DNA of 35,741 bases from Gallionella sp. Its GTDB lineage: Bacteria > Pseudomonadota > Gammaproteobacteria > Burkholderiales > Gallionellaceae. The DNA is taken from the NCBI GenBank assembly GCA_013043965.1, contig JABEVF010000119.1, positions 1 to 35,741 on the forward strand, in the 5' to 3' direction. Below, piece after piece: positions 4,601 through 18,007 of the stretch. The first letter of the stretch is position 1, and each line of letters begins with the position of its first letter. Below the pieces are notes generated by a model, which worked only from the letters and a program-made list of their open reading frames with translations, was not told the DNA's origin and did not search any database. Made by a program: the position numbers and the translations under genes.

Positions 4601-5542
4601 CTACATCAAACAATAATTTACCGGCTCAAGCGGTACCAACTCGTGCTTATCCCCTATTGAGTCACGCAGGTTGATTTCAATCGAGCGGCAGATAGCATCC
4701 AGTGCCAAATCGTTGGGCGAGCTGCCGAAAGGTTCTTCGATTTCATCACCCAGCGCATCCAGTCCGAAGAAAGTATAAGCAACTATGCCTACGACAAACG
4801 GTGTCATAAAGCCTATCGTATCTACGAGACCGAAAGGCAACAAAAAGCAGTACAGGTAAGCCGTCCGGTGCAGCAGCAAGGTGTAGGAGAACGGGATGGG
4901 TGTGCTTTGGATTCGTTCACAGGATGTAGCGGCTGCCGTCATCGCGGACATGCTGGCATCGATGGCAGCCGCAAGACAGCCATCGAGCCGTTCCTCATCC
5001 AGACACAGGCGCAAATCATTACCCATCTGGCGCATCAGATAGTCGGGAATGTTGGAGGTATGGGCGATTCTTTGCCATTCGTGTTGTACGAGGAGTGGTT
5101 TTAGTTCGGCGCGGGCATCCGTATTGCGCAACAGGTGGCGCAGTGCATGTGAGAAGGCAATGGTGCGGTATATCATCCTGACGCGTACATCGTTCAATCC
5201 CAGATCGGCCTTGAGTGGCGCGGTGTGCTCAATGAAGGTCAGGCATTGGCGCGCAAAATTCCGACTCTGTAACACGATTTCTCCCCACAGCTTGCGGCCT
5301 TCGCAGTAACGATCATAAGCTGCACTATTGCGAAAGCCGAGAAAGATGGCTAACGGCAAGCCGATCAGCGTAAATGGAATGGAGGTCAGCGTGATTTTTA
5401 ACCTAAAAAGGTCTCCGTGATTCAACGTAACCACAGTGGCAATCGCGATGTTGACTAACAGTACGCCCCAGATTCGATGCAGCACCGAACCGCGAAAAAC
5501 TAAAAACAATCTGAACCCGGAAGGTCTGCCACGAACTATCAT
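4601..5542 (-). CDS. Bestrophin-like (YneE/UPF0187) membrane protein, putative anion channel
   Basis: About 313 residues, close to the roughly 300 of E. coli YneE. The N-terminus has the family pattern: a first membrane segment (VLLVNIAIATVVTL), a second one with the PFTLIGLPLAIFLGFRNSAAYDRYCEGRKLWG block, which is the bestrophin signature, and later membrane segments around LYCFLLPFGLVDTIGF and PFVVGIVAYTFFGLDALG, ending in the conserved DEIEEPFG. Bacterial bestrophins form pentameric ion channels in the inner membrane; which ion this one passes cannot be read from sequence. It lies alone on the minus strand, with a 43-nt perfect palindrome about 40 nt upstream of its start. The 240-nt gap between it and the DUF4124 gene shows no convincing gene. 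Confidence 0.88.
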   Translation of the reverse strand: MIVRGRPSGFRLFLVFRGSVLHRIWGVLLVNIAIATVVTLNHGDLFRLKITLTSIPFTLIGLPLAIFLGFRNSAAYDRYCEGRKLWGEIVLQSRNFARQCLTFIEHTAPLKADLGLNDVRVRMIYRTIAFSHALRHLLRNTDARAELKPLLVQHEWQRIAHTSNIPDYLMRQMGNDLRLCLDEERLDGCLAAAIDASMSAMTAAATSCERIQSTPIPFSYTLLLHRTAYLYCFLLPFGLVDTIGFMTPFVVGIVAYTFFGLDALGDEIEEPFGSSPNDLALDAICRSIEINLRDSIGDKHELVPLEPVNYCLM

Positions 5543-5580: not shown

Positions 5581-5623
5581 AATCACAGACAGATTATCTC
5601 ATTGAGATAATCTGTCTGTGATT
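5581..5623. repeat. Perfect 43-nt palindrome (21-nt arms, 1-nt spacer)
   Basis: Left arm 5581-5601 and right arm 5603-5623 are exact reverse complements around a single T; the two adjoining pairs outside can also form G-U and G-C pairs. There is no adjacent U-tract on either strand, so it does not look like an intrinsic terminator. It lies about 40 nt upstream of the bestrophin start, where it could be an operator or a cruciform/hairpin in the 5' leader; it may equally be a fused pair of mobile-element ends. Confidence 0.9.
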
Positions 5624-6057: not shown

Positions 6058-6660
6058 ATGAAAAATTCTTTCGAGCAATGCCTTGTCTTTATCAGTGTCG
6101 GGATGTTTTCCTCGGGGGCATCGAGTGCCGAATTCATTAACCTCGGATTCGGGGGGTTAAATCCTATGGCACATTGCAGTGCCCAGGTTCTGATGCTCGA
6201 ATACGAACATCAACTGACCACGACAACGGCATTCTTGGCGCGTGGCAGCGGGGTCAGTTATAGGTACGATAATGGGCGGTATTTGGAGGATGGGAGACTG
6301 CGGGGTATGGACGTCGGGGCCAGGTACTATCCGGCCGGCAGCATGCAGGGTTTGTTTGTCGGTGGGACCATCGGATACTGGAACCAGGATCAGACGTTCA
6401 CCCAATACGAAAGTACACCGGGCCAATGGCAGGGGAAGGCAAGCCATACTTCACCGAGACTGAACATCGATATTGGCGATCGGATCACAATCGAAGGCAG
6501 CAAATTTTCGATCATGCCCGAGGTCAATATCGGGAAATTCTTCATGTCCAGCTCGTGTGATGTAACCGCTCCTAGCGCTATGATCGGAACACCCTGCAAC
6601 CAGAAGTCAGAAGTCAATTATTACATTTTCGTCGGACTGCTTGTCGGCCTCGAATTTTGA
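6058..6660 (+). CDS. Small outer-membrane beta-barrel-like protein
   Basis: About 200 residues with an N-terminal signal peptide (MKNSFEQCLVFISVGM..., cleavage probably after SSA). The mature part is rich in alternating hydrophobic/polar strands with glycine and aromatic residues (LFVGGTIGYWNQDQ, VNYYIFVGLLVGLEF) and ends in phenylalanine, the classic signature for BamA-dependent outer membrane insertion. Two cysteines near the C-terminus (SSCDV and TPCNQ) may form a loop disulphide. The start is ATG 6058, because GGAG at 6049-6052 is well spaced from it; an upstream in-frame GTG at 6052 overlaps that site. I do not recognise a specific family; it resembles general opacity/OmpW-sized barrels. 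It stands alone between two copies of a diverged repeat. Confidence 0.7.
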   Translation: MKNSFEQCLVFISVGMFSSGASSAEFINLGFGGLNPMAHCSAQVLMLEYEHQLTTTTAFLARGSGVSYRYDNGRYLEDGRLRGMDVGARYYPAGSMQGLFVGGTIGYWNQDQTFTQYESTPGQWQGKASHTSPRLNIDIGDRITIEGSKFSIMPEVNIGKFFMSSSCDVTAPSAMIGTPCNQKSEVNYYIFVGLLVGLEF

Positions 6661-14871: not shown

Positions 14872-15813
14872 TTAGATCACGCCTGCCAGATGCGCCTGTT
14901 CATCCGCAAAGTAGCTGCTGCGCACCATAGGCCCGCAGGCGGCGTGGCTGAACCCCATCGCTTGCGCGGCTTGCTCGAACATCGTGAAAGCTTCCAATGG
15001 CGCATAACGCAGCACCGGCAAGTGCCCGTCGGAAGGCTGCAGGTATTGGCCGATGGTCAGCATGTTCACATCGTGCGCGCGCAGGTCGCGCATCACTTCC
15101 AGCACTTCCTCGTCGGTCTCGCCCAAGCCCAGCATCACGCCGGATTTGGTGGGGATATGCGGGAAGCGCGCCTTGAAATCCTTGAGCAGCTTGAGCGAAT
15201 GCGCGTAGTCCGCGCCGGGTCGCGCCAGTTTGTACAAGCGCGGCACGGTCTCCAGATTGTGGTTCAGCACATCGGGCAAACTGATTGCCAGCGCGTCCAA
15301 GGCCTCATCCAATCGACCGCGAAAATCGGGAACCAGAATCTCCAAGCGCGTGTTGGGCGAGCTCGCGCGTATCGCGCTCAGGCAATCGGTGAAATGCCGC
15401 GCGCCGCCGTCGCGCAAGTCGTCCCGGTCCACGCTGGTGATGACCACGTATTTCAGGTTCAGCAGGCCGATGGAGCGCGCCAGATTGGCGGGTTCATCCA
15501 CGTCGGGCGGCAGCGGTTTGCCGTGCGCGACATCGCAGAACGGGCAGCGGCGCGTGCACACATCGCCCAGGATCATGAAGGTCGCCGTGCCTTTGCTGAA
15601 ACACTCGCCGATGTTCGGGCAGGAGGCTTCTTCACAAACTGTGTGCAGATTGTGTTCGCGCAGCAATCTTTTTACATCGCTGTATCCGGTACCGCTGCCC
15701 GACTTCACGCGTATCCATTCGGGTTTGCGCAAGCGTTCTTGCAGCGGAACGATCTTGATCGGGTTGCGCGCCGTCTTGGCCGCGCCGGTTTGTTTGTTTG
15801 CGGCATCACTCAT
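14872..15813 (-). CDS. lipA: Lipoyl synthase
   Basis: Radical-SAM enzyme inserting two sulphur atoms into octanoyl groups on lipoyl domains. 313 residues. It has the auxiliary 4Fe-4S cysteines ([12 protein letters not shown]), the radical-SAM CX3CX2C (CTRRCPFC), GLGET, and the C-terminal RSSY serine that ligates the auxiliary cluster. The start ATG 15813 has AGAGGA upstream and gives the usual family length; the frame stays open to 15984 by chance. Last gene of dat-ybeD-lipB-lipA; it begins 26 nt after lipB, its substrate-supplying partner. Confidence 0.97.
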
Positions 15814-15839
15814 GTGATTCCTCTTCGTAGTAAATAATC

Positions 15840-16649
15840 TTATTGATGCGCAGTGCCCGCAGAAGCCAGATGCCGCTGCAAACCGTGTATCAGGTTTTGC
15901 GCGAGCTGGGCTTGTAGTTCGTTGAGGTTGGCGGTGATGCCGAGGGCGCAGGCTTGGGTGACTTGCAGGCCCTGATAGCCGCACGGGTTAATGTTGTTGA
16001 ACGGCGACAAGTCCATGTCCACATTAAACGACAGGCCGTGATAGCAGTAGCCGTGTTTGATCTTCAGCCCCAGCGCGGCGATCTTCGCGCCGCTCACATA
16101 CACGCCGGGTGCATCGACGCGATGTACGGCATGGACTCCGAATTCGGCGAGCAGATCGATGACGGAATTCTCCATCACGTTGACCAGTTCGCGCACGCCG
16201 ATCTTCCAGCGGCGCATGTCGAGCAACAGGTAGGCGACGATCTGGCCGGGGCCGTGATAAGTGATCTGTCCGCCACGATCGATTTTGACGACAGGTATGT
16301 CGGTCGGATTAAGCAAATGTTCCGGCTTGCCCGCCAAGCCTTGGGTATAGGTGGGCGGATGTTGCAGCAGCCATATTTCGTCGCGGGTTCCCGGTATCTT
16401 TCCATCCGGGGTACGCTCGGCAGTGAAACGCTTCATCGCGTCCCAGGTGGGCTGGTATTCAACAAGCCCAAGACTGTGAAGAGCAGGATTGGGGATTGAG
16501 GATTGGAGATTGAGGATTGAAGTGCGCGAAGCTAATGGTGAAGAGCTAGGCTCGGCGAGCCAGGAGAGAGGATCGGAGTGCGAAGATTCTGGCGCGAGCG
16601 CAGCCCCCGCTTTTCCCTCAATCCTCGATCCCCGATCCTCGATCCTCAT
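15840..16649 (-). CDS. lipB: Octanoyltransferase LipB with repeat-encoded N-terminal extension
   Basis: Transfers octanoate from acyl carrier protein to lipoyl domains. Core from [17 protein letters not shown] onward is typical, with the [16 protein letters not shown] block, KIAALGLKI (catalytic lysine) and NPCGYQG (catalytic cysteine). The core is about 213 residues, the normal length, but the frame needs an N-terminal extension of about 55 residues to reach a start codon: between the core and ATG 16649 there is no ATG, GTG or TTG. The extension lies in an inverted-repeat element (16484-16647). ATG 16649 overlaps the ybeD stop as ATGA, so coupled translation is likely; an in-frame GTG at 16679 is less likely. 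Whether the extra segment is kept in the mature protein is unknown. Confidence 0.93.
16484..16647. repeat. Inverted-repeat element inserted at the ybeD/lipB junction
   Basis: Two 32-nt arms (16484-16515 and 16616-16647) match as inverted repeats at about 24 of 32 positions; each is built from GGATTGA/GGATCGA-type units. The 100-nt centre includes a small hairpin GGCTCG-GCG-AGCC. The element is in frame with lipB and supplies its start codon. It looks like a MITE-like or palindromic repeat; no transposase is seen. Confidence 0.8.
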
Positions 16650-16945
16650 AGCACCATCACCACCATAGGGTGGTCGCACAGATCCTGATAGACGGCATCG
16701 AGTTGCGCGCGCGAGGTGGCGCGTATGGTGCAGGTCAGGCTGACGTAGCGCGCGGTTTTGCTGGCGCGCATTTCCATGCTGGCGGCGATGAAGCCGGGGT
16801 CGTGTTTGGTCACCACTTCGAGTACGGCCTGGGCAAAGCCCGCCTGTTGCTGGCCGAATATCTTGAGCGGAAAGTCGCAGGGATATTCGATCAGGCTGTC
16901 GCTAATTTCCCTGACTGTCGCGGTTCTTTCGGGCGGATTTTTCAT
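16646..16945 (-). CDS. ybeD: YbeD/DUF493 family protein
   Basis: 99-residue UPF0250 protein with a ferredoxin-like/ACT-like fold in its E. coli homologue YbeD, and encoded next to lipB in many proteobacteria. Motifs: LIEYPCDFPLKIFG near the N-terminus and a conserved SLTCTI...SRAQLDAVYQDL stretch. The molecular role is unknown; a link to lipoate metabolism is inferred from gene neighbourhood only. It overlaps dat by 4 nt (16942-16945) and its stop overlaps the lipB start, so the three are very likely one transcript. Confidence 0.9.
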   Translation of the reverse strand: MKNPPERTATVREISDSLIEYPCDFPLKIFGQQQAGFAQAVLEVVTKHDPGFIAASMEMRASKTARYVSLTCTIRATSRAQLDAVYQDLCDHPMVVMVL

Positions 16946-17796
16946 GGGGCACGCATCACGTCACGTTTGAAATCTTGATAGAGGCGATGCAGCCGGGTGT
17001 ACATCGCGCCCGGCCTGCCCGCGCCGACGAGTTGGCCATCGAGCCGGGTGATGGCGAGGACTTCTTTAGTGCTGGAAGTGAGCAGTAGCTCGTCAGCAGC
17101 GCACACTTCCGCTTTGCTGATGCGCCGCACTTCAAGCGGAATATCATTCGCGGCGGCGATTTCCAGGATCACATCGTAGGTGATGCCGGGCAGCATGAGA
17201 GTGTCCTTGGGTGGGGCGAGCAGCGTGCCATCTTTCACCACGAAGATGTTGCTGGCCGCACCTTCGGTCAGCCACTGGTCGTCGCGCAGCAAGATGGTTT
17301 CCGCGCAGCCCGCGTCTATCGCCATCTGGCGTAGCAACACATTGGGCAGCAGCGAGATGGCTTTGATGTCGCAGCGCAGCCAGCGGTTGTCGGTCGCGGT
17401 GATACAGGCGATGCCGTTCTCCAACAAAGCCGCGCTCGGCGTTTTTAAGGGCTTGCTCATCACGAACACCGTCGGCGCAACGGGTGGATTGGGGAAAGCA
17501 TGGTCGCGTTCCGCCACCCCACGGGTGATGTGCAGGTAAAGATATTGGTCTTCGCCAGTGTGCAGTGCGACGAGTTGTTCGATGATGCGCGTCCATTCCG
17601 CATCGCTGTGCGGGTTGGCCATCTGTATGCCGTCCAGGCTGTGTCGCAAGCGGTTCAAATGTCCGGGCAGGCGGAATGCTTTGCGGCCATAGACAGGGAT
17701 CACCTCATACACGCCATCGCCAAAGATGAAGCCCCTGTCCAGCACCGAGATTTGGGCTTTCTCGACCGGCATGAACTGTCCGTTCAGATAAATCAT
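16942..17796 (-). CDS. dat: D-amino-acid transaminase-like PLP enzyme
   Basis: 284-residue fold-type IV aminotransferase. MIYLNGQFMPVEKAQISVLDRGFIFGDGVYE is the D-alanine aminotransferase start, and CDIKAISLLPNVLL carries the Schiff-base lysine; GAASNIF and LPGIT bind the cofactor phosphate. Such enzymes interconvert D-alanine and D-glutamate for peptidoglycan; a branched-chain or aminodeoxychorismate lyase function is less likely given the motifs. Its place between dacA (which releases D-alanine) and the lipoate genes is a common betaproteobacterial order. First gene of the dat-ybeD-lipB-lipA cluster, overlapping ybeD by 4 nt. Between it and dacA lie 211 nt with no recognisable gene. Confidence 0.9.
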   Translation of the reverse strand: MIYLNGQFMPVEKAQISVLDRGFIFGDGVYEVIPVYGRKAFRLPGHLNRLRHSLDGIQMANPHSDAEWTRIIEQLVALHTGEDQYLYLHITRGVAERDHAFPNPPVAPTVFVMSKPLKTPSAALLENGIACITATDNRWLRCDIKAISLLPNVLLRQMAIDAGCAETILLRDDQWLTEGAASNIFVVKDGTLLAPPKDTLMLPGITYDVILEIAAANDIPLEVRRISKAEVCAADELLLTSSTKEVLAITRLDGQLVGAGRPGAMYTRLHRLYQDFKRDVMRAP

Positions 17797-18007
17797 TATT
17801 GATGAGGGAATCTATAGAAATTCAGAATTTTTGGATGAAGCGCAAGGAGCCGCGCATAACCAGCGACTTGCCAGCTTGCTGGCTTAGTCGAATGGCTAGT
17901 TGCTTTACCAGCGAATGACGCAGGCATATCAGATGGATAGACTCGGAATGAGCGAGCACGCGACACCGCGATTCGCCAAAAAAATGAATTTATAAAGATT
18001 CCCATTT

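Follow-up and report, generated by a model that had tools for sequence, protein, structure and literature searches.

The locus considered here lies in the window, a 35,741-nt stretch of DNA analysed at its full length, from a Gallionella-type MAG. This draft genome comprises 157 contigs and 2.48 Mb, and LipB places it nearest, among named relatives, to MAGs of Gallionella, Gallionellaceae and Gallionellales. On the minus strand, lipB directly follows a small gene presumed to be ybeD (the name is taken over from an earlier note on this DNA), and a palindromic element built from 7-nt units lies between the start codon of lipB and its conserved core. The features are as follows.

16646-16945, minus strand: ybeD-like gene, 99 aa, directly upstream of lipB
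15840-16649, minus strand: lipB open reading frame, 269 aa; the confidence of the predicted structure is low over residues 1-50, and the alignment of the core to a solved LipB begins at residue 55
16647-16649, minus strand: ATG start codon of lipB, which shares the tetramer ATGA with the stop of ybeD; also present in element-free relatives
16485-16648, minus strand: heptamer-array palindromic element, in frame at the lipB 5' end; similar arrays occur elsewhere in the genome
16618-16648, minus strand: 5' arm (lipB sense), units GGATCGA/GGATCGG/GGATTGA
16521-16617, minus strand: inter-arm loop, 97 nt, open in the lipB frame
16490-16520, minus strand: 3' arm (lipB sense), units of the TCAATCC type
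15840-16484, minus strand: conserved LipB core (LplA-B_cat, PF21948), the sole such match found in the genome

The two arms (16490-16520 and 16618-16648) are complementary at 26 of 31 positions (84%). When the 166-nt element was dinucleotide-shuffled 300 times, no shuffle reached this value, the maximum being 21. The earlier note had described inverted arms matching at about 24 of 32 positions; its observation of an inverted-repeat element in lipB is confirmed, with somewhat better pairing, and its interpretation of that element is partly supported, as detailed below. RNA folding of 16470-16660 gave a z of -3.16, with none of 200 shuffles as stable, and the ybeD-lipB junction of the window alone gave a z of -4.8 against 60 shuffles. 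By scanning the window in 237 tiles, it was found that three reach 24/31 pairing: one is the lipB element, and two fall on a perfect palindrome at 5581-5623 that is free of 7-nt words. The latter is a 21-nt inverted repeat with a 1-nt spacer, placed just outside a minus-strand ORF (4601-5542). Elsewhere in the window, a short stretch at 6589-6630 shows 7-nt periodicity (AGAAGTCAGAAGTCA). No family was matched by an Rfam search of 15500-17500 at E values up to 1, and no promoter or terminator was found in a scan of 16300-17900.

Upstream of the core, the lipB frame contains only two NTG codons, GTG 16679 and ATG 16649, and the stretch from the element to the core is free of ATG, GTG and TTG codons. 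The frame scan thereby upholds the statement of the earlier note that no NTG start lies between core and repeat. Two further points of that note also stood: ATG 16649 overlaps the ybeD stop as ATGA, so that the element keeps the coupling, and about 55 residues are added at the LipB N-terminus, as 55 codons precede position 16484. If begun at an NTG codon, lipB must thus be read through the element, either from the ATG of the ATGA or from the GTG before it. The element is considered to be read as protein in lipB because an alternative NTG start is lacking and because of the comparative frame data given below. The note had further proposed that the element created the start codon, and this part is rejected: the same ATGA is found in the array-free relatives L048, L070 and L104, where the LGL motif follows after 45, 21 and 21 nt, and the window start codon is therefore independent of the element. 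The number of codons ahead of the LGL motif is 59 in the window versus seven in the element-free L070 and L104; L108 likewise has only seven. Among the junctions compared, no relative combined an identical N-terminus with the absence of the repeat, and the N-termini of some array-free relatives differ in sequence and reach up to 66 codons. A different arrangement is seen in L045, L053, L062 and L103, whose arrays do not share the frame of the overlap codon; an ATG is available in a GGAATGA unit, and here the array itself seems to supply the start codon.

The enzymatic part of LipB appears intact. Its core scores over the PF21948 cut-off and aligns to the solved LipB 1w66 from residue 55 onward. 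K189 and C223, which we take to be the catalytic Lys and Cys, are invariant in 44 LipB sequences. AlphaFold2 assigned the window LipB pLDDT values of 34-50 in the first five ten-residue blocks and 93 in the sixth. Because of the low pLDDT in residues 1-50, the part added by the element is predicted to form a disordered tail ahead of the intact core. The peptide probably has a passive role. Two irregularities of lipB were noted in other genomes: in L056/L093 (G033) the frame runs for at least 523 residues, well past the usual end, which suggests a fusion to the next gene or a lost stop, and two lipB matches from genus members (G030:C6:75677-76288 and G004:C49:59441-60055) contain one in-frame TGA each.

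Comparison across relatives was based on 85 distinct ybeD-lipB junctions of 45-260 nt, from which shorter and longer junctions, exact duplicates and L063 (no ybeD in reach) had been removed. A 7-nt array, called at 16 or more of 21 matches at lag 7, was detected in 39 of them, and in none of these did any of 60 shuffles reach the observed value. A fold z below -2 was obtained for 27 of the 39 array junctions versus 7 of the 46 other junctions, 12 array junctions falling short of that threshold. The arrays comprise at least seven words, of the GGATTGA, GGACTGA, GGGAGAA, GGGGCAA, GGGGAGT, CAGGATG and GTGAAAG types. Judged from these sequences, the ybeD-lipB junction is a hot site at which species carry different words.

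With a looser cut of 15/21 at lag 7, 42 junctions carry an array and 43 do not. The frame is open and in frame to the core from an NTG codon overlapping the ybeD stop in 34 of the 42 array junctions, versus 18 of the 43 array-free ones. In 17 of these 34, the window included, no other NTG precedes the core; the other 17 have a further NTG between the overlap codon and the core, and a start at that codon could leave part of the element untranslated. The loops of several LipB inserts are alike by eye, and this likeness fits both rewriting in place and repeated insertion. Additional types of insert were observed at the same junction. In L082, L089 and L090, the lipB element itself hosts another insert, about 60 nt long (AACCAGCGACTTGG...CTAGTCGAATGGCTAG...), in either orientation and with the frame open, and L049/L088, L086 and L125 carry other palindromes lacking 7-nt words, such as GTAGGTCGGGATTTATCCCGAC in L125 (fold z -9.9).

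The relationship between arms, words and genomes was examined by permutation tests that ignore relatedness. In the 42 array junctions, own 5' and 3' arms match better (mean score 26.2) than arms re-dealt among the junctions (16.3), the observed sum being reached in 0 of 20,000 permutations. Taken singly, the cases are less clear: the own pair scored highest of all pairings in only 2 of the 42 junctions, and in six at least 23 of the 41 foreign arms equalled or exceeded it. Both arms of an element thus tend toward a shared word. Furthermore, the lipB word leans toward the one common elsewhere in its genome: the word class of the lipB array has a mean share of 0.67 in the rest of the genome over 14 genomes, a value reached by 2 of 50,000 permutations, where the class in G005, G012, G027 and G028 depends on a loose 3-mismatch match alone and the reversed-pattern controls behind the counts are not zero (28 control versus 14 pattern matches in G027). 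These 14 genomes were drawn from 29; for the other 15, none of the three words counted gave a lipB class. In five of the 14 (G001 and the four just named) the lipB class is not the commonest of its genome, and four of the genomes left out (G003, G008, G011 and G024) have a lipB array of another word though GGAT/GGACT words prevail among those counted.

Inheritance was assessed on a quick LipB-core tree of 69 rows, in which 6 of 66 inner branches are starred. Word classes, assigned from patterns drawn by eye, change at least 35 times on this tree; the shuffled mean is 35.8, and 75 of 200 shuffles were as low. For the presence or absence of an array, the starred branches alone force at least five changes. 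Descent of a single lipB element, word and all, is rejected, as the LipB tree does not explain the words.

The arm word is not confined to lipB. The genome search for further copies suggested by the earlier note, carried out herein with a 20-nt pattern of the arm word (GGATCGA/GGATCGG/GGATTGA) and up to two mismatches, yielded 44 matches at 16 sites and none for the reversed-pattern control. An 18-nt form of the pattern with one mismatch gave 1156 matches in 39 of 61 genus genomes, versus 25 control matches in 6 genomes. The note had described a single lipB case; the element belongs to a dispersed family of 7-nt-word arrays that also occurs inside other core genes.

The sites of this family were inspected in three genomes (16 in G000, 19 in G079 and at least 27 in G013). 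In 17 of the 62 sites checked, the insert lies in frame inside one protein, with domains or an alignment of that same protein flanking it on both sides; the G079 sites come from a full list of 35 pattern matches, and one of them, L249, which has no cluster under a stricter pattern, was kept in the denominator. Internal inserts were assigned to MurF, MurB, MetRS and Lpd in G000, to MurF, DnaE, AroA, MutL, LeuRS and BioH in G079, and to a dipeptide-type ABC protein, MutL, CarA, PurL, BioH, MurF and MurB in G013. These names are presumed, chiefly from Pfam domains, and MurB, BioH and MetRS are also named by PDB matches. Against the solved structures, the inserts appear as gaps of 18 residues in MurB, 12 in BioH and 10 in MetRS, and the BioH insert occupies nearly the same place in G013 and G079. 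Some internal inserts consist of a lone short array with no second arm, for example those in MurF and AroA of G079. The family thus recurs in frame inside many core enzymes. In addition, N-terminal elements were found in DHFR, Sdh5, heptaprenyl-diphosphate-synthase-I, IPP transferase, GMP synthase, PRAI, RuvC and others (by Pfam); apart from LipB, such extensions were left out of the coding count because a start downstream of the insert is possible.

MurB offers a second view of one site across species. Its loop measures 14-37 aa in 15 of 16 genus genomes and 6 aa in G009, and four or more words were seen. The lag-7 periodicity was equalled by no more than 1 of 100 shuffles in 11 of the 15; the remaining values are 2 (G000), 3 (G015), 13 (G006) and 25 (G002) per 100. 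The MurB loop is accordingly a second shared site that bears different words in different species.

Translation may also place limits on the word itself. An array of GGATTGA in the sense direction brings a TGA into frame at every third unit. In coding copies, T at the fifth base was found in 0 of 8 units able to give this in-frame TGA, against 10 of 24 units in other phases (Fisher P 0.035) and 59 of 76 units in 15 hand-picked loci taken as intergenic (P 2.5e-5), with 3 of the 32 coding units lying outside the element. The zero is partly built in, because intact genes were chosen. T is likewise less frequent in units of the other phases than in the intergenic copies (P 0.002).

In-frame coding palindromes are best known from Rickettsia, as the Rickettsia palindromic elements (RPE), and the earlier note had drawn this parallel for lipB. 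RPE are described as hairpin-forming repeats of 105-146 bp found in spacers and in frame in conserved genes, with 19 reading frames listed, and the effect of the RPE in Gmk is given as neutral or slightly harmful; the same review reports other small repeats fused in frame (Delihas, PMC2229807). Like RPE, the window element is a short palindrome (about 164 nt, arms paired at 26/31), and members of its family lie in frame inside conserved protein genes, 17 of 62 sites here. Unlike RPE, the arms here are arrays of 7-nt words, a single site bears different words in different species, and the bacteria concerned are Gallionella-type. The parallel drawn is one of behaviour, the element being said to work like an RPE.

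The build of the element is closer to other repeats. Dispersed, G-rich heptamer repeats of the form GGGNATC/GGGANTN have been described in Xanthomonas and Nostoc, with GGG tracts that form G-quadruplexes in vitro; 70 and 75 facing inverted pairs are reported for two Xanthomonas genomes, in which 89-93% of the repeats are intergenic (Rehm et al., 2015, PMC4692102). The present arrays resemble them in their tandem G-rich 7-nt units, dispersed occurrence and some inverted pairs. They differ from the GGGNATC form in that the window units mostly have GG only, with one GGGGATC in the 5' arm, and from the intergenic Xanthomonas repeats in that 17 of 62 Gallionella-type sites are protein-internal and further ones N-terminal. 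Correia/NEMIS, ERIC and RU are MITE-like repeats whose frames are fused to host genes (see also PMC2759123); the description consulted gives terminal inverted repeats and mentions no tandem 7-nt words (PMC2229807). The TAACTGA heptamers of Beggiatoaceae form dispersed 7-nt arrays, some overlapping ORFs, and are one-word direct repeats lying mostly upstream of start codons; the string 'palindrom' is absent from the main text of that source (PMC4679880). Coding heptamer palindromes in Gallionella were not reported among the matches listed from the open PMC literature, which is no proof of absence. From the known RPE, the known heptamer arrays and this null result, the lipB element is therefore described as RPE-like in behaviour and as a heptamer array in build. 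The unusual feature of the Gallionella-type family is the occurrence of different words at shared sites.

Altogether, the lipB element is best understood as one copy of a dispersed, translated family of heptamer-array palindromes that behaves like RPE, a reading to which we give a probability of about 0.8. Facing short arrays of one 7-nt word form the arms, and the family occurs in spacers and genes, in the latter where the frame stays open, thereby adding an open segment to tolerant protein parts such as a terminus, linker or loop. Copies probably spread or were rewritten from other genomic copies, by mobility in the form of non-autonomous transposition or by gene conversion, and slippage in steps of 7 nt together with arm-to-arm template switching may keep the arms complementary. 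A more far-reaching version may tentatively be proposed, with chances well short of even: 'word-switching' coding palindromes, in which sites are shared across species and the word of both arms is rewritten toward the prevailing words of the genome by copying or conversion, so that core proteins keep gaining lineage-specific peptides.

The main rival, which we consider unlikely, is a hairpin kept as a regulator, its stem between the ATGA and the core tuning the translational coupling of ybeD and lipB with any word. The recurrence of stems with different words, the tendency of arms to share a word, and a window fold more stable than its shuffles all agree with this explanation; however, it leaves the same elements inside other genes and in spacers unexplained, and 46 of 85 junctions do without a 7-nt array. 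The start codon, moreover, lies at the edge of the element or inside it and not downstream. In L045, L053, L062 and L103 the arrays are out of frame and contain the start. A different role is assumed if the element is a mere spacer, so that LipB is initiated from a rare codon at the core while the frame ahead of it is open by chance. No NTG lies near the window core, and some element-free relatives do start close to it, yet chance openness fits poorly with 34 of 42 array junctions being open in frame from the overlapping NTG versus 18 of 43 array-free ones, and the internal inserts in other genes show such arrays to be translatable; we regard this explanation as highly improbable.

The repeat could also owe nothing to insertion, the long N-terminus being ancestral LipB sequence that drifted to low complexity. 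Most of the relatives compared, some of them array-free, have more than seven codons before the LGL motif, and the loops of some LipB inserts are alike. However, the extra residues are encoded by 7-nt arrays whose word recurs at unrelated loci of the same genome, and L070, L104 and L108 have seven codons only, which makes drift decidedly improbable. Finally, the window derives from a 157-contig draft, and an assembly artefact of the metagenome bin may be suspected; its probability is practically negligible, as elements of this kind occupy the same sites in different assemblies, and in G079 the family lies inside genes on a contig of 3.16 Mb.

The translated heptamer-array family favoured here would bring 7-nt arrays into DNA polymerase, tRNA synthetases and cell-wall enzymes outside Rickettsia, where their spread and the usefulness of the resulting peptides can be tested by comparison, with the shared sites bearing different words serving as many natural replicates. 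It also calls for caution in annotation, since repeats may be the source of N-terminal and loop sequences in Gallionella proteins.

The word is also encountered beyond the genus. Of 200 genomes of the order, 9 contain the exact 18-nt form; three of these belong to the genus, a further two to the family and four to other families. One genome of another family, G130, contains 174 exact matches to the GGATYGR pattern and 18 control matches. Four others from other families (G059, G177, G216 and G127) are rich in the reversed control pattern, perhaps a sign of additional families of 7-nt words.
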